DNA of 35,710 nucleotides from Methanosphaera stadtmanae (lineage in GTDB: Archaea > Methanobacteriota > Methanobacteria > Methanobacteriales > Methanobacteriaceae). This document shows, piece by piece, positions 24,660 to 33,664 of the stretch. The translations under genes and the position numbers were made by a program. How positions within the stretch are numbered: position 1 is the stretch's first letter; each line of letters starts with the position of its first letter. The notes beneath the pieces were generated by a model that was not told where the DNA came from, did no database searches, and worked only from the letters and a program-made list of their open reading frames with translations. The DNA is taken from NCBI GenBank assembly GCA_015062825.1, contig SUTR01000001.1, positions 55,007-90,716 on the forward strand, written 5' to 3'.

Positions 24660-25298
24660 ATGAGAAAATGTGAAAATTGCGGATATGAAAATGAAGATAA
24701 TGCAATTAAATGTTCTAGATGTAATTATTTATTTATCGAATATGAGAAGAAAAATCAGACCATTGAAGAAAAAACAACTATAACCAATAATAACACGATA
24801 GTCAATAATGATTTTATATATCAAGCAAATAGTTATAACGATGACAATGGTTATTATGAAATAAATCTTTCAGAAAATTATAATATCCATAATCAATTAA
24901 GTACAGATAATTATCAAAAAGAAGATAATGAAGATATAAACAATACATTAAACAATGATATTTTAAACAACTATTACATTGATAAACAAAGAGATATCAA
25001 AGTAAATGATAATAACCTCAAACATAAAAATCCAATTATAGGACTTGTATTATCATTTATTGTATCCGGTCTTGGAAATATTTATGCAGGATTATATAGA
25101 AGAGGTATTTTTCAGATAATAATATCAGTCATGCTAAATTATTTAACATTCTACATATTCCCAAATAATATGATTTTAACTATGATTAATTTAATTTGGG
25201 CATTCTATGTAATGTATGATTCCTACATATGTATTGTTGCTCGTAATGCAGGCAAAGAAGTTCCATTACTTTTGGGATTTATACGTTTTAAAGAATAA
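24660..25298 (+). CDS. Zinc-ribbon plus TM2-like membrane protein, 212 aa
   Basis: The N-terminus is a short zinc ribbon with CxxC pairs at Cys4/Cys7 and Cys18/Cys21 ('MRKCENCGYENEDNAIKCSR'). A long low-complexity Asn/Asp-rich linker follows (residues about 30-120). The last 90 residues hold three hydrophobic segments, with 'GLGNIYAGLYRRGIFQI' resembling the turn of TM2-type domains. I chose the ATG at 24660 because AAGTGAG (24645-24651) is correctly spaced before it; an in-frame GTG at 24648 lies inside that site. The protein is probably anchored in the membrane with the ribbon inside. No specific function can be named. Its 3' end overlaps the convergent gene by 11 bases. Confidence 0.75.
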   Translation: MRKCENCGYENEDNAIKCSRCNYLFIEYEKKNQTIEEKTTITNNNTIVNNDFIYQANSYNDDNGYYEINLSENYNIHNQLSTDNYQKEDNEDINNTLNNDILNNYYIDKQRDIKVNDNNLKHKNPIIGLVLSFIVSGLGNIYAGLYRRGIFQIIISVMLNYLTFYIFPNNMILTMINLIWAFYVMYDSYICIVARNAGKEVPLLLGFIRFKE

Positions 25299-25668
25299 CA
25301 TTTTCATATTCAGGATATTTTTCAATAAATTCTTTGACTTCATCTTCTAAGTGATTAAACCATGCTTCATGATTTAAGTCCCGTGAAAAATGTTTTATTT
25401 CCACCATTTTCCTTTTCTGTTTTTTATCTTTTATTTTATCAGTAATTGTTTGATCCACTTCTGGTATTTTAATGTCATTTTCAGCTTTTCCTGGATATGC
25501 TATGTTAACATCTTCAAACATTGTAGGTATTAAATCTCCATTTTCATATGTTTTTAAGAACATCTCTTCATAATTTTCGGCAATATATCTATAATTTAAT
25601 CGTATTTGTACAAATTCATTTTCTTGTTGAGTCATTTGCTCTAATTTTTCATAGTTCCATTCTTTCAT
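25288..25668 (-). CDS. Hypothetical soluble protein, 126 aa
   Basis: A charged, mostly helical protein without signal or membrane segments ('MKEWNYEKLEQMTQQENEF' ... 'KEFIEKYPEYENVIL'). The middle part carries 'KDKKQKRKMVEIKHFSRDL'. No family is recognised. GAGG at 25680-25683 is 11 bases from the ATG at 25668 but only two from a possible GTG at 25677, so the ATG is preferred. The gene ends 11 bases inside the zinc-ribbon gene on the other strand. It could be a small regulator or partner of another protein; nothing in the sequence decides this. Confidence 0.6.
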   Translation of the reverse strand: MKEWNYEKLEQMTQQENEFVQIRLNYRYIAENYEEMFLKTYENGDLIPTMFEDVNIAYPGKAENDIKIPEVDQTITDKIKDKKQKRKMVEIKHFSRDLNHEAWFNHLEDEVKEFIEKYPEYENVIL

Positions 25669-26208
25669 TAATGACACATCCTCATAATTATATGTATATC
25701 TTATTTTATTTCTTGTTTTTTATAATTTAATTATACACTAACAAAAAAAATATAATACTTTCTAAAAATTACTAAATCATGAAATCTAAACTATAATAAA
25801 ATGTAATACTATCTATGTATTAATATCAGAGATTTAGATAGAATATAACCCATAATTAACTTTATTTTATAAATAATACCTATTTTAATGTTAAAACTAT
25901 AAAATAATTTTATATTTTATTTCATTAAAGTATTCAGTAGTTTTTTGAGTTTTTTGAAAATTATATTATTTATCATCAATAAATAAATAATGTTTAATAA
26001 TATTAATTATACATTATAATTTATACACATTTACATATATTTTAGTGTTTCCTAAACTTAATTTAGTTATACTTAAATATAAATTATTCAAACCTAAAAA
26101 GAAACATATTTAAATACTATAAACAACTTAGATTTATTTGTAGAATAATTTGTATTATTTGAGAAATATTATTCTAATTTATAATAGATAACAAAAAAAG
26201 TGATAAAT
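25669..26208. promoter_or_regulatory. Divergent intergenic region upstream of the metal-efflux operon
   Basis: About 530 bases of AT-rich spacer between diverging genes. For the plus-strand operon, CATATTTAAATACTATAAAC (26105-26124) is a TATA-box candidate. Just before it, TTTAG/CTAAA words alternate at 26041-26066 (TTTAG-N6-CTAAA-N5-TTTAG). They could be a metalloregulator operator; this is only a guess. No ORF or RNA gene is seen. Confidence 0.35.
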
Positions 26209-26535
26209 ATGGTATTAACAGGAAGAAATAATAATAATAAATCATATAGTGGAAGAGCAAGAGAATTTTTCGGACAAGAAAAAGTAAAATATTTCATTGG
26301 CGGAATGGTAGCTGCTTATGCAATTAAAAAAATAGCAGAAACAGACACAGCACATGATTTAGCAGTATCAGCAACAGCTGGTTTTTTAAATTTCAAAGAT
26401 TCAGTAGAAGAAACCGTAGAAAACATCAAAGAAGATGCAGAAGATATTCATACTGAAGCACAACAAAAACAACAAATCGAAGTTTTCGGTCCAGAAGACT
26501 TTGATGATGAAGATGAAGAAGAAGATGAAGAATAA
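26209..26535 (+). CDS. PacL/DUF1490-like small membrane partner of a metal ATPase
   Basis: A 108-residue protein with one N-terminal hydrophobic segment ('KYFIGGMVAAYAIKKIAE', residues about 27-45). A helical region follows ('VSATAGFLNFKDSVEETVEN', then 'IKEDAEDIHTEAQQ'), and the end is a very acidic tail (EDFDDEDEEEDEE). This layout (GG-containing helix, 'AVSATAxGLxxK', amphipathic helix, metal-binding-like tail) matches, from memory, mycobacterial PacL1 (Rv3269, DUF1490) and a similar Firmicutes family encoded just before P1B ATPases. PacL proteins scaffold and assist metal efflux pumps. Here the tail is Asp/Glu-rich, not His-rich. AGTGAT precedes the ATG at 26209. The ATPase gene follows after 50 bases, probably cotranscribed. 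No database search was possible. Confidence 0.65.
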   Translation: MVLTGRNNNNKSYSGRAREFFGQEKVKYFIGGMVAAYAIKKIAETDTAHDLAVSATAGFLNFKDSVEETVENIKEDAEDIHTEAQQKQQIEVFGPEDFDDEDEEEDEE

Positions 26536-26585
26536 TTTTATTTTATTTTAAATTTTTTTAAAATATAATTAGGACTTGAATTACA

Positions 26586-28694
26586 ATGAAATTTAAGATA
26601 GTTTATGATAATAATCGTGATACTATCCGTGTACGTTTTGGTAGAAATGTTATTACTAAAAAAGAGGGATATGGTCTATCAGAATTATTATCACAAAAGG
26701 AAAATATCCAAACTGTTAAGGTTTCATCTGTAAATGGTAGTATATACATTAATTATAGTGGTAGTAAAAACAAAATATATAAAATATTATCTTCTATTAA
26801 AAAATCTGATCTTTATGAAGCTGAACCAACACAGGATGAAATTATCAGAGAAACAAATAGGCGATATATTAATAGAATACTCCGAAGAGTAGCTACCAGA
26901 TATTTATGCATGTGGTTTATGCCACAACCAATCAATATTATCAAGATTGTATATGATTCAGCACCATATATACTTAAAGGTATTGATAGTTTATTACATC
27001 TAAGGGTAGATGTAGACCTGCTTGATGCAACATCTCTTGCAGTAACATTAAGTCAGAGAATGTTCGGTACAGCAGGATCCATTGTATTCTTACTTGGAAT
27101 ATCTGAAATCCTCGAGGAATATACAATTGAAAAAACAAAACATTCACTCGAAAACAGTTTGATGTTAAATATCAACAAGGTATGGGTAGAAACTGAAACT
27201 GGTGAAGAAATACAAGTGCCATTTACTGATATTAAAAAAGGAGATCATGTAATTGTAAGAACTGGTACAATAATTCCTGCTGACGGTACAATAGTTAAAG
27301 GAGAAGCAGAAATTAATCAAGCTACAATGACTGGTGAATCCTTAGCAGTAAGAAAAATAGAAGGAAACAGTGTATTTGCTGGTACAATTGTTGAAGATGG
27401 AAATATAACTATTGAAGTAACTGCTTTAAATGAAGAAACTAGAATCAATCAGATAATTGATTTAATAGAATCATCAGAAGAAGTTAAAGCTACTGTTCAA
27501 AGTAAAGCAGAAAAACTAGCAGATTCAATAGTTCCATGGAACTTTGCATTAACCGGATTTACTTACCTACTTACAGGCAGCACAATTAAAGCAATTGCAG
27601 CACTGACAGTTGATTATTCCTGTGCTATAAAACTTACAACACCAATAGCAGTCATATCTACCATGAGAGAAGCATCAGAAAGGGAAATTGTAGTTAAAGG
27701 TGGAAGATATCTAGAATCATTTGCAACTGCAGATACAATTGTATTTGATAAAACAGGTACATTAACAAAATCACAGCCACATGTTGCAAAATACATATCA
27801 TTAGGCGTATTATCTGATGAAGAGGTATTAAGACAGGCAGCATGTATAGAAGAACACTTCCCACATAGCGTAGCAACAGCTATTGTAAATAAAGCCAAAG
27901 AGTTAAACCTTCAACATGGTGAAGAATTACACTCTGATGTAGAATACATAGTTGCTCATGGAATTGCAACTACAATAGTTGGTAAACGTACAGTTCTTGG
28001 AAGCAGACACTTTGTAATTGAAGATGAAAAAGTAAAAATATCTCCAGAACATGAAAAACTTATCCAAGAAAGCATGGATAAATACTCTGTAATTTATCTA
28101 GGAATCAACGGAAATCTTGAAGGTATAATTTGTATTGATGACCCTCCAAGAGAAGAATCAAAAGAAGTTCTAGATCAGCTTAGAGCATTAGGAATTAAAG
28201 ATACAATTATGCTTACAGGTGACTCTGAAAATGCAGCTAAAACAACTGCTGAATTATTAGGTATAGATCATTATAGATCACAAGTATTACCAGAAGATAA
28301 GTCCAGAATTGTAGAAGAACTAAAAGCAAAAGGTAGAACTGTCATTATGGTAGGAGATGGAATCAATGATTCTCCAGCATTATCTGCAGCTGATGTATCT
28401 GTTGCAATGAAAGACTCATCAGACCTTGCAAGAGAGGTAGCAGATATTACATTACTTAGACCAACATTAGAAGATCTGGTAACTGTAAGACTTTTAAGCC
28501 AGAAAATGCTTGACTTGATTCATAAGAATTATAGTCGTATACTTGTATTAAACACTTCATTTATGGCATTAGGTATTGCTGGTGTAATAACACCATCCAT
28601 TACCTCAGTATTGCATAACGGTTCAACTATGCTATTAAGTTATGACAGTATGTCATCTAAAAACTTCAAAAAACTTAAGGCACCAGAAGTATAA
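26586..28694 (+). CDS. P1B-type metal-transporting ATPase with SCA motif
   Basis: A 702-residue heavy-metal P-type ATPase. The N-terminus (residues 1-85) looks like a metal-binding-fold domain without the CxxC pair. The actuator TGES lies at 249-252, phosphorylation site DKTGT at 388-392, and hinge GDGINDSP at 590-597. The intramembrane metal motif, normally CPC, SPC or similar, reads 'DYSCAIKLTTP' (343-353), so the proline is replaced. The P1B 'HP' locus reads HFPHS (424-428), where the second His is kept but the Pro after it is Ser. Similar variants occur in Mn/Zn/Fe-exporting ATPases that pair with PacL/DUF1490-like partners, which matches the gene before it. Export of a transition metal ion from the cytoplasm is likely; the metal is not determined. 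Confidence 0.88.
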   Translation: MKFKIVYDNNRDTIRVRFGRNVITKKEGYGLSELLSQKENIQTVKVSSVNGSIYINYSGSKNKIYKILSSIKKSDLYEAEPTQDEIIRETNRRYINRILRRVATRYLCMWFMPQPINIIKIVYDSAPYILKGIDSLLHLRVDVDLLDATSLAVTLSQRMFGTAGSIVFLLGISEILEEYTIEKTKHSLENSLMLNINKVWVETETGEEIQVPFTDIKKGDHVIVRTGTIIPADGTIVKGEAEINQATMTGESLAVRKIEGNSVFAGTIVEDGNITIEVTALNEETRINQIIDLIESSEEVKATVQSKAEKLADSIVPWNFALTGFTYLLTGSTIKAIAALTVDYSCAIKLTTPIAVISTMREASEREIVVKGGRYLESFATADTIVFDKTGTLTKSQPHVAKYISLGVLSDEEVLRQAACIEEHFPHSVATAIVNKAKELNLQHGEELHSDVEYIVAHGIATTIVGKRTVLGSRHFVIEDEKVKISPEHEKLIQESMDKYSVIYLGINGNLEGIICIDDPPREESKEVLDQLRALGIKDTIMLTGDSENAAKTTAELLGIDHYRSQVLPEDKSRIVEELKAKGRTVIMVGDGINDSPALSAADVSVAMKDSSDLAREVADITLLRPTLEDLVTVRLLSQKMLDLIHKNYSRILVLNTSFMALGIAGVITPSITSVLHNGSTMLLSYDSMSSKNFKKLKAPEV

Positions 28695-30038: not shown

Positions 30039-30066
30039 TTATATAACAATTAAGGGTGTGTATCTA

Positions 30067-31830
30067 GTGAAAAGTAGAAATTTGATGATTGTATTGTTGA
30101 TTTTATTGTTTTTGTTGGTTCCGGTAACAATTGCGGGGGATGGAGACTATAAAATTCCTAGTGTTGTTAAAGATGTAACAGTAAATGATGATGGATCAGT
30201 ACATATCTCCGAGAAGATAGTTTATGATATTGAGGGAAGTGTTAACGGAGTATACAGGAATATACCTTTAACTGGCAGGCAATCTGTGAGGAACATCTCG
30301 GTTAAAACTCCCGGTTACTATAATACGTTGGAAGTTGATAGAAATAATAATAGTACCATATTAAGGGTATGGTTATATGAGGATAAGGATAAAACACGTA
30401 AAACAGAAAATGCTAGGGTGGAAGTTACCTATGATTACACCATACGTAAGGGTGTGAAAGTATATAATGACATTGCAGAAATGCAGTACATGACATGGGG
30501 AAGTGAGTGGAATTCAAAAGTAGATAGTATGGAATCAAACATCCACGTACCGGGCACAAAAAATGATATAGAATACTGGAACAATCCGGGGGATAATGTA
30601 GTATCAAGTCAGTGGACAAGTGATGATACATTAACAGTTAAACTTGAAAATATTGATGCACATACCTCATTTGAACAAAGAATTTTAATGCCCAAAAATT
30701 ATATTAAAAACACAACTTTTGCTCAGGTAATACATGTTGATGCAAAACAAAGGATAGAAGATGATCAGAGAAAGTATGAGGAAGAACATAATAAACAAAA
30801 TATTATAGTTACTCTTGCATGGACAATACTGGGTTTAGTGTTATTAGTACCCTTTGGAATATACTGGTTTTTTGGAAGAGAACCAAAAATTGAATACAAT
30901 GCAGAATACGAGTATGACCTGCCGAGTGATGCAACACCACTACAGGTAAACATATTAATAAATGGGAATGTGGGAGTTATAACAGATGATGCGATGTATG
31001 CAACAATTCTTGACCTGATTAACAGGAAATACTTTAAAATAGTGGTGAATGATAGAGACAATACGATTATCAGACAAACTGGTAAGGACATGGGCCACTT
31101 ACGTGAATATGAGTTGTCATTAATTGATTTTTTATCCTCGTTTGCTCAGGATGGTGATATATCAATAGGTTATGTGGGCAGACGATCACACTATCATCAA
31201 TTCCAGAGATTCAGTGTCAAATGGTATAAACAGGCACGTGAAGAAACATCAGACACATGGATAAAACAGTACTTTGATGACAGAGGCTCAAAGCTCTTAT
31301 TGTACTGTGGAATAATGTTCTGGATATTGTTTATCCTAACGATGATTGTAATGGTATTTATGCTGATACCAGCTTATTTGACAACATTAGCACTTGTTTC
31401 AATGTTTGTTTTCATGATTGGTGGTGTAATACTCTTTATTGTACCGAACACTGTTCCGGGAAGATGGACATCGGAGGGAAAGGAATTTTATGACAAATGG
31501 AAAAACTTTGAAAAATACATAAAAGATTATAGTCTGATAAAGGAAAGGCCACCATCATCAGTACAGGTATGGGGAAAATACCTTGTATATGCTTCGGCAC
31601 TAGGCTGTGCCGACAGGGTAACAAAAAACATGAAACAATACTTTAAATCAGTGAATATTGATGAAGATACATTCACGGACAGCAGTGCAGTATCATTTGC
31701 TTACTATAATGGATTTGCTCATGTGGAAGCATCATTCAACACATTATCAGAATCTGAAAGTGATTCAAGTGGATCAATAGGAAGCAGTGGCAGTGGAGGA
31801 TTTGGTGGCGGAGGTGGAGGAACCTTCTAA
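30067..31830 (+). CDS. DUF2207 membrane protein, first of two tandem paralogs
   Basis: A 587-residue membrane protein of the DUF2207 (YciQ-like) family. A signal peptide or first helix covers residues 1-21. The N-terminal domain (about 22-240) faces outside: 'VVKDVTVNDDGSVHISEKI', 'GVYRNIPLTG', 'YWNNPGDNVVSSQWTSDDT'. A membrane helix follows near 244-266, then a cytoplasmic part, two or three helices near 408-460, and the family block 'KWKNFEKYIKDYSLI'/'YLVYASALGCADRV'. The tail is Gly-rich (GGFGGGGGGTF), typical of the family. I prefer the GTG at 30067 (AAGGGTG at 30052-30058 is well spaced) over the GTG at 30058, which lies in that site. Function of the family is unknown. The paralog begins 46 bases downstream. 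Confidence 0.85.
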   Translation: MKSRNLMIVLLILLFLLVPVTIAGDGDYKIPSVVKDVTVNDDGSVHISEKIVYDIEGSVNGVYRNIPLTGRQSVRNISVKTPGYYNTLEVDRNNNSTILRVWLYEDKDKTRKTENARVEVTYDYTIRKGVKVYNDIAEMQYMTWGSEWNSKVDSMESNIHVPGTKNDIEYWNNPGDNVVSSQWTSDDTLTVKLENIDAHTSFEQRILMPKNYIKNTTFAQVIHVDAKQRIEDDQRKYEEEHNKQNIIVTLAWTILGLVLLVPFGIYWFFGREPKIEYNAEYEYDLPSDATPLQVNILINGNVGVITDDAMYATILDLINRKYFKIVVNDRDNTIIRQTGKDMGHLREYELSLIDFLSSFAQDGDISIGYVGRRSHYHQFQRFSVKWYKQAREETSDTWIKQYFDDRGSKLLLYCGIMFWILFILTMIVMVFMLIPAYLTTLALVSMFVFMIGGVILFIVPNTVPGRWTSEGKEFYDKWKNFEKYIKDYSLIKERPPSSVQVWGKYLVYASALGCADRVTKNMKQYFKSVNIDEDTFTDSSAVSFAYYNGFAHVEASFNTLSESESDSSGSIGSSGSGGFGGGGGGTF

Positions 31831-31876
31831 AAAAAATTCCTCCTCAAAATTACAATAGTTGGGAGAGTGTGTTAGT

Positions 31877-33664
31877 ATGAATGCAGGAAAAATGTTAGTA
31901 TTAACATTGATTTTACTGTTTATGTTAATGCCCATATCTCTGGCAACTGAAGGTGATTTTACCATACCATCAGTTATTAAGGATATCACAGTAAAAGAAG
32001 ATGGTTCAACAGTAATCAGTGAAGAAATAATATATAATATTCAGGGAAGTGTTAATGGAGTATTCAGAGATATTCCACTTAATCAAAATCAGACAATACG
32101 AAATATTTCAGTAGAAACTCCAGGATACTATAATAAATTAGAGGTAATAAGATATGGCAATAGTACAAAGCTTAGGGTATGGCTCTACAGTGATAGGGCT
32201 AAAACACAGAAAACACGCGATGCAAAGGTATCAGTAACATACAAGTATACAATAGATAAAGGTTTGAAAGTTTATAATGATATAGCAGAATTGCAGTATA
32301 TGACTTGGGGTGGTGAATGGAATACAAGTGTAGATTACCTGGAATCTACCATTCACATACCATACACTAAGGAATATGTAAAATACTGGAACAACCCCGA
32401 GGATAATGTTATCTCAAGCCAGTGGACGAGTGAGGATACATTAACTGCTAAACTGGAAAACATTGGTGCACACACATCATTTGAACAGAGATTAATAATG
32501 CCTAAAGACAATTTCAAACATGCAATATATGCTCAACACATAAAAGGTGATGCAAGAGAACTCATAGAACAAGACCAAAATTATTACTCAGAAAAAAAAG
32601 ACAAGAACAATGATTATGCACAAGGAAAATATTATGATAATATCAGAGTAACATTTTTCTTCACAGCATTAAGTATACTCACAATCATTCCAATAGGAAT
32701 CTATGGATTGTATGGCAGAGAACCAAAAATAGATTATAATGCAAAGTATGAGTATGATCTTCCCACACATGAATCTCCAGTACAGGTATATGCAATTACA
32801 AGAGGAAAACTTAAAAATATAGGTAATGATGCAATGTATGCAACAATACTTGACCTAATAGATAAAAACTACTTTAAAATATTGTATTCCAATGATGATA
32901 CAATTATCAGATGTACCAATAAAGATACAACCACCTTGAAAGAACATGAAAAAATAATAATAGGATTTTTATCATCCAATGCAGTAAATGGTGACATATT
33001 CCTTGGAGATATAGTAAGATCAGATCGTATGGCATTCCAGAATTTCAGAAACACATGGATAAAACAGGCCAAAGAGGAAATTCCCGATTCATATGTTGAA
33101 AAATATTTTGATGACCAGGGATTGAAAGTCTTACAAAAAATACGACGTACGTATTTTTTAATAGTAATAATTATATTTATTGTAATATTCTTTAAACTTA
33201 TACCATCAATGTTCATCCTGGAATTAATGGCTGTATTAATGATGCTTATGATGGTATTTGCTATATTAATGTTTTTTATTCCAAAATTTGTTGTTGGAAG
33301 ACGGACACCACAGGGAAAAGAGACATATCATAAATGGAAAAACTTTGAACGATACATAAAAGACTACAGTCTAATCAGCCAAAGACCACCATCATCAGTA
33401 CACGTATGGGGAAGATACCTAGTATATGCCACAGCACTTGGATGCGCAGATAAGGCAACAAAAAACATGAGAAAATATTTTGAAACAAATCGGATAGCGT
33501 ATGATTCATTTAATGACATAAATACAGTATCTTTTACATATTATGGAGGTCTTGCTGTTATGCAATCTTCATTCAATATATTATCAAGAACAGACACTTC
33601 TACTTCGGGAATTGGAGGGGCTGGTAGTGGAGGATTTGGTGGTGGAGGTGGAGGAACCTTCTAA
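31877..33664 (+). CDS. DUF2207 membrane protein, second tandem paralog
   Basis: A 595-residue relative of the gene before it, aligned along its whole length: signal peptide 1-21, outer DUF2207 domain, helix near 255-280, helix group near 421-471, block 'KWKNFERYIKDYSLI'/'YLVYATALGCADKA', and the same Gly-rich end GGFGGGGGGTF. The middle loop before the first inner helix is longer ('QDQNYYSEKKDKNNDYAQGK'). The start is the ATG at 31877, with GGGAGAG at 31861-31867. The upstream TTG at 31859 is in frame but precedes that site. Probably in one transcript with the first paralog, as no terminator lies in the 46-base gap. Arose by gene duplication. Role unknown; possibly envelope-related. Confidence 0.85.
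   Translation: MNAGKMLVLTLILLFMLMPISLATEGDFTIPSVIKDITVKEDGSTVISEEIIYNIQGSVNGVFRDIPLNQNQTIRNISVETPGYYNKLEVIRYGNSTKLRVWLYSDRAKTQKTRDAKVSVTYKYTIDKGLKVYNDIAELQYMTWGGEWNTSVDYLESTIHIPYTKEYVKYWNNPEDNVISSQWTSEDTLTAKLENIGAHTSFEQRLIMPKDNFKHAIYAQHIKGDARELIEQDQNYYSEKKDKNNDYAQGKYYDNIRVTFFFTALSILTIIPIGIYGLYGREPKIDYNAKYEYDLPTHESPVQVYAITRGKLKNIGNDAMYATILDLIDKNYFKILYSNDDTIIRCTNKDTTTLKEHEKIIIGFLSSNAVNGDIFLGDIVRSDRMAFQNFRNTWIKQAKEEIPDSYVEKYFDDQGLKVLQKIRRTYFLIVIIIFIVIFFKLIPSMFILELMAVLMMLMMVFAILMFFIPKFVVGRRTPQGKETYHKWKNFERYIKDYSLISQRPPSSVHVWGRYLVYATALGCADKATKNMRKYFETNRIAYDSFNDINTVSFTYYGGLAVMQSSFNILSRTDTSTSGIGGAGSGGFGGGGGGTF

Follow-up and report, generated by a model that had tools for sequence, protein, structure and literature searches.

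A DUF6110 and P1B-6 ATPase gene pair of Methanosphaera stadtmanae has the make-up of fezAB and an iron-box-like upstream site

In mycobacteria, the DUF1490 protein PacL1 makes membrane platforms of the P1B ATPase CtpC (PMC9374683). DUF6110 proteins generally lack a metal-binding motif and are typically encoded with P1B6 ATPases, Archaea included, and an HN motif in the sixth transmembrane helix (TM6) is a feature of the P1B6 class (PMC9374683, Boudehen et al. 2022). The link between PacL, DUF6110, and P1B6 ATPases, including those of Archaea, is prior knowledge, published in 2022 (PMC9374683; also PMC13043812). In C. difficile, ferrosomes require the membrane protein FezA and the transporter FezB, and Fur represses both (PMC12574912). 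The two genes, fezA-fezB, correspond to CD630_05910-05920 (PMC11651100) and are listed as an ATPase and a hypothetical protein in a study of iron and Fur (PMC6311696). PMC13043812, which deals with DUF6110/PacL effluxosomes, does not mention ferrosomes, and we found no report of ferrosomes in any archaeon in the literature searched.

We analyzed a stretch of 35,710 nucleotides (the window) from Methanosphaera stadtmanae, whose genome assembly comprises 2.6 Mb in 132 contigs. Two intact ORFs in the window run in the same direction and are separated by 50 nt. The first (26209..26535, + strand) encodes a PacL-like or FezA-like small membrane protein of 108 aa, counted from an ATG with AAGTGATAAATATG on its 5' side, which was assigned to DUF6110 using PF19605, AF2, and an alignment. 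The second (26586..28694, + strand) encodes a FezB-like metal ATPase of 702 aa, placed in the P1B-6 class using TIGR01525, motifs, and AF2. A sequence-only reading of this DNA had described a 108-aa protein with a GG-containing helix, an amphipathic helix, and an acidic tail directly before an ATPase; both ORFs proved to be real and adjacent. The small protein consists of a short N-terminal stretch, one transmembrane helix (residues ~24-44), a long amphipathic helix (46-92), and an acidic disordered tail. Its GG lies in the helix YFIGGMVAAYAIKK; a further segment, AVSATAGFLNFK, precedes an acidic helix, and the tail reads FGPEDFDDEDEEEDEE, with neither His nor Cys among the last 25 residues. 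The AF2 model of this protein contained helices 24-44 and 46-92 only, at low confidence (pLDDT 60), and a sequence search of the PDB returned no match to it. Upstream of the pair, the window also encodes a divergently transcribed 129-aa protein (25288-25677, - strand) that belongs to no Pfam family; in 11 further Methanosphaera loci among those fetched, a homologue of it lies close to the fezAB-like genes. Farther downstream lie tandem paralogous DUF2207 membrane proteins (30058-31830 and 31859-33664), each with a Gly-rich GGFGGGGGGTF end.

The sequence-only reading had proposed that the small protein is PacL-like, and the profile searches bore this out in part. The protein scored 26.9 bits against DUF6110 (PF19605), a narrow margin over the gathering cut-off of 26.0, and E=4.6e-34 against a DUF6110 profile built from an alignment that contained the protein itself. 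Against DUF1490 (PF07371) it scored 19.9 bits (E=8e-4), below the cut-off of 28.4. The two families are nonetheless related at the profile level (hhalign probability, 95%; P=3.5e-8). The protein departs from DUF1490/PacL in several traits: the GXXG of the PacL transmembrane helix reads G32-M-V-A35 here, the second Gly being replaced by Ala while G32 is invariant in the alignment; the His-rich C-terminal metal-binding motif, seen as HDHDH-like ends in most fetched Actinomycetota DUF1490 proteins, is missing; and the partner ATPase combines HN with SCA rather than with CPC. By these sequence comparisons, the small protein is a DUF6110 protein and a remote relative of PacL/DUF1490, not a DUF1490 member. 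It falls in the same Pfam family, and is encoded with the same class of ATPase, as the DUF6110/P1B6 pairs described previously (PMC9374683), from which the Methanosphaera copies differ in three respects: the N terminus is longer, a motif IE(I/V)(F/Y)GPED is conserved, and the acidic tail is long.

The ATPase has a ferredoxin-like N-terminal domain without CxxC, carries DKTGT, and matched TIGR01525 with E=1e-143. In its AF2 model (pLDDT 80), the strands and helices of the N terminus follow a ferredoxin-like order, and the closest PDB folds were those of P1B pumps, among them CopA and ATPases for cadmium and for zinc. Its nearest relatives, at 72-78% identity, are from Methanosphaera. TM4 reads VDYSCAIKLTTP, with a DYSCAIKL core and no CPC, and TM6 contains HNGST; the HP locus reads EEHFPHS, with HS in place of HP. 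The loss of CPC and of the HP proline that had been read from the sequence was thus confirmed. The description of the pump as “non-canonical” was not, because these features are the norm of the class: replacement of CPC by SCA in TM4 is a trait of P1B-6 ATPases, and D343, S345, C346, K349, EEHFPHS, H677, and N678 were identical in 36 of 36 aligned homologues. Since they are invariant in the class, the absence of CPC and HP is not peculiar to the window gene. The same signature, with minor variants, occurred in the ATPases of loci found by searching with the ATPase. In a quick tree with SH-aLRT rather than bootstrap support, the SCA ATPases formed one clade (SH-aLRT 100), with the partner ATPases of DUF1490 proteins outside it. 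The archaeal P1B-6 sequences likewise formed a single clade (SH-aLRT 100), nested within gut bacteria, chiefly Clostridia; this nesting suggests one acquisition by Methanobacteriaceae, the direction of transfer being read from the nesting only. The other PF00122-domain ATPases of the source genome are four CPC pumps and one further P-type ATPase. A P1B-6-like ATPase with DYACPVKL in TM4 was also observed on a conjugative Cereibacter plasmid, beside genes for FeoA, TonB siderophore receptors, and FecR.

A scan of a genome collection located 80 ATPase loci, and a DUF6110 ORF lay just upstream in all 76 that could be evaluated; a run of N (locus L017) or the contig end (three loci) covered the relevant position in the other four. 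Across the 76 linked bacterial and archaeal loci, the small protein shared 20 to 71% identity. Apart from the small size of the ORF, nothing favors a chance juxtaposition of an unrelated reading frame with a P-type ATPase, and this linkage, together with the match to a curated family, already refutes it. DUF6110 was found in 104 of 139 Methanobacteriaceae genomes. Among 40 fetched DUF6110 loci of this family, 32 adjoined a P1B-6 ATPase, 6 adjoined a CPC ATPase, and 2 adjoined none (one with a truncated copy, the other at a contig end). The gene linkage that the sequence-only reading had predicted is therefore conserved, and, given the remote kinship with PacL/DUF1490 as well, neither a lack of profile similarity nor a lack of linkage speaks against its PacL-like assignment. 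In the six loci with a CPC ATPase, all from Methanobrevibacter-type genomes, the order is different: the CPC ATPase is followed by one to four tandem DUF6110 genes, with an ArsR gene 5' of the ATPase in five of the six. This second arrangement, of which we found no mention in the literature searched, resembles the mycobacterial PacL2/CtpG and PacL3/CtpV sets and indicates that DUF6110 is not bound to P1B-6 pumps. Two further observations concern individual contigs. A Peptococcaceae contig (L064, 2334-6559) carries two tandem P1B-6 ATPase genes after one DUF6110 gene, with feoB nearby. A contig labelled Methanobrevibacter olleyae (L017/L018), in which the N run covers the small gene, matches a Methanosphaera contig in its ATPase region and is probably a mislabelled assembly.

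The acidic tail had been taken to signal a changed metal preference, an idea that we rejected. The DUF6110 copies of Firmicutes and Fibrobacter are 73 to 89 aa long, with short tails, and those of Methanobrevibacter type have short KKEIYVEDD-like ends. The Methanosphaera copies in our alignment measure 104 to 119 aa and share IE(I/V)(F/Y)GP(E/D)D on the N-terminal side of the acidic run, the first Ile being Val in one copy. The tail is thus a genus-level extension of a region that is short elsewhere and by itself carries no metal signal, in keeping with a family that generally has no metal-binding motif (PMC9374683).

The genes surrounding the pair point to iron. Of the 130 P1B-6 loci (mean, ~9.3 kb), 24 encoded FeoA or FeoB, and none of the 13 loci taken as controls, which held DUF1490 or CPC pumps, did so; the control set is small, and the P1B-6 loci are not independent of one another, many being from Fibrobacter. 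The Feo-linked loci came from Oscillospiraceae, other Clostridia, Fibrobacter, Coriobacteriia, and Methanobacteriaceae, and most archaeal loci lack a Feo neighbor. Other recurring neighbors of P1B-6 genes were DtxR (13 loci), flavodoxin (13), and DUF3793 (14); we identified no cytochrome gene of the FezC/DUF4405 kind next to the gene pair. We considered whether a lack of ferritin might argue that ferrosomes are essential and rejected this, since ferritin-superfamily genes are nearly universal in Methanobacteriaceae, with three in the source genome. Their presence means that iron storage need not depend on the gene pair.

The region upstream of the small gene provides a second indication. An iron-box-like site, TTTAGTGTTTCCTAAA (26041..26056), matches the palindrome TTTAGGnnnnCCTAAA at 11 of 12 positions, and a second, weaker site, TTTAGTTATACTTAAA (26062..26077), matches it at 10 of 12 and would carry little weight alone; a candidate TATA box, TTTAAATA (26109..26116, + strand), would mark the promoter. 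The first site is the only one in the 35.7-kb window with at most one mismatch to TTTAGGnnnnCCTAAA (0.10 expected from shuffles), and the 21-nt start-to-start spacing of the two sites recurs in six related loci (L137 to L140, L155, and L159). Both sites are degenerate, which we counted against an iron reading. Among 34 archaeal loci (including the two without an ATPase), 21 had a match of at least 11/12 within 300 nt upstream of the genes, compared with 0.07 loci expected by first-order Markov shuffles, and the density of sites was 2.9/kb upstream versus 0.04/kb in the remainder of the same loci; because the palindrome was first noticed in these same upstream regions, this enrichment is descriptive and not an independent test. 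A genome scan served as an independent check. Exact sites numbered 9 in the source genome, 14 in G043, 19 in G013, and 2 in G110, and the reversed pattern, used as a control, occurred 0, 0, 2, and 0 times, respectively. The feo genes stood at exact sites in all four genomes surveyed, as did the SUF operon in the source genome; TTTAGGnnnnCCTAAA also fronts genes without an obvious role in iron metabolism. The candidate regulon near exact sites in the source genome comprises feoB, the SUF operon, and genes for an LCM-type methyltransferase, an aquaporin-like protein, an ArsA-like ATPase, and an F420-dependent oxidoreductase-like protein. A DtxR-family repressor that includes a FeoA domain is encoded in the source genome and is a candidate reader of the TTTAGGnnnnCCTAAA boxes. 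DtxR-family repressors may sense Mn rather than Fe.

Given the ATPase class, the two-gene make-up, and the iron-type operator, the best reading of the locus is a fezAB-type Fe(II) unit, a two-gene operon that is probably ferrosome-like; we assign this reading a probability of roughly 0.55. FezB is reportedly a P1B-6 ATPase and is said to occur in both bacteria and archaea, so that an operon pairing a P1B-6 ATPase with a small membrane protein reproduces the make-up of fez. The likeness to C. difficile fezA-fezB was drawn from make-up, not from sequence, and lies in a two-gene unit of an ATPase and a small membrane or hypothetical protein and, possibly, in iron regulation; the C. difficile pair is controlled by Fur, whereas the window pair has a DtxR-type operator. 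That operator is common to the gene pair, feo, and suf, a computational sign of a possible link to iron. In the fez-like clusters of Proteobacteria and Campylobacterota (Azospirillum, Arcobacter, and Vibrio plasmids), small Gly-rich membrane proteins likewise precede a P1B-6 ATPase, whose motifs read DYSCALKL and HNGTT, but these are multigene clusters with several extra genes, including one for an HMA2 protein in Azospirillum, and the match of their small proteins to DUF6110 is marginal (E, 3e-4 to 0.009). In the methanogen, the DUF6110 protein would be anchored in the membrane by its one helix, and its cytoplasmic amphipathic helix may cluster and stabilize the ATPase, by analogy with PacL1. 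As with FezA/FezB of C. difficile, the ATPase would clear ferrous iron from the cytosol, the most probable destination being a ferrosome-like store bounded by a membrane, and a DtxR-type metalloregulator acting on the iron box would couple expression to the iron status of the cell. Judged separately, a role of the pair in iron handling appears likely, while the actual building of ferrosomes falls somewhat short of an even chance.

Two other functions have to be weighed against a fezAB-type unit. The DUF6110 protein could cluster the pump in patches of the plasma membrane, as PacL1 does with CtpC (PMC9374683), for outward export of Fe(II), or Mn, without an organelle. The architecture of the small protein is similar to that of PacL1, and the window boxes (26041-26077) lie 5' of the TATA box, which is compatible with activation by a metal-loaded regulator; however, the box abuts the TATA box (as in L167 and L168) or lies near the ATG in several relatives, the regulon is shared with feo and suf, which are usually iron repressed, whereas an export pump is normally induced by excess metal, and the characterized fezAB pair makes ferrosomes. 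We regard such an export platform as less likely than a fezAB-type unit but as a serious alternative to it. Zinc or cadmium efflux in the manner of PacL1-CtpC with an altered tail, which the sequence-only reading had favored, seems less likely by a good measure. The parallel with PacL1-CtpC holds for remote homology of the small proteins, HN in TM6, gene order, and conserved linkage to a P1B ATPase, and the sets of ArsR, CPC ATPase, and one to four DUF6110 genes show that DUF6110 can serve Zn/Cd-type pumps. It fails at the pump: the DUF1490 loci of Actinomycetota pair with CPC ATPases, six of the seven fetched being of the HN-containing, SEIHSRHPLA-like CtpC type, but the window ATPase has SCA and HS and groups within the P1B-6 clade, not with CtpC-type or CPC pumps. 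Moreover, the pair lacks both an ArsR neighbor and the His motif, and its operator is of the DtxR type found at feo. Iron handling is thus more probable than zinc export.

In place of the zinc efflux guess, there is now an iron hypothesis that can be put to the test for a gene pair present in most Methanobacteriaceae genomes, and two literatures, on DUF6110/PacL effluxosomes and on the ferrosome genes fezAB, are linked. More tentatively, we suggest that gut methanogens (Methanosphaera, Methanobrevibacter, and kin) may build ferrosome-like, membrane-bounded iron stores by using a fezAB unit that they obtained from gut Clostridia and that has since come under the control of an archaeal DtxR iron box. 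To our knowledge, no iron storage organelle has been shown in Archaea before, so that this one would be the first. If this is true, DUF6110/PacL would be a common scaffold of ferrosomes and mycobacterial effluxosomes, and gut methanogens would own a membrane-based store of iron, which could affect how they compete for this metal in the gut.
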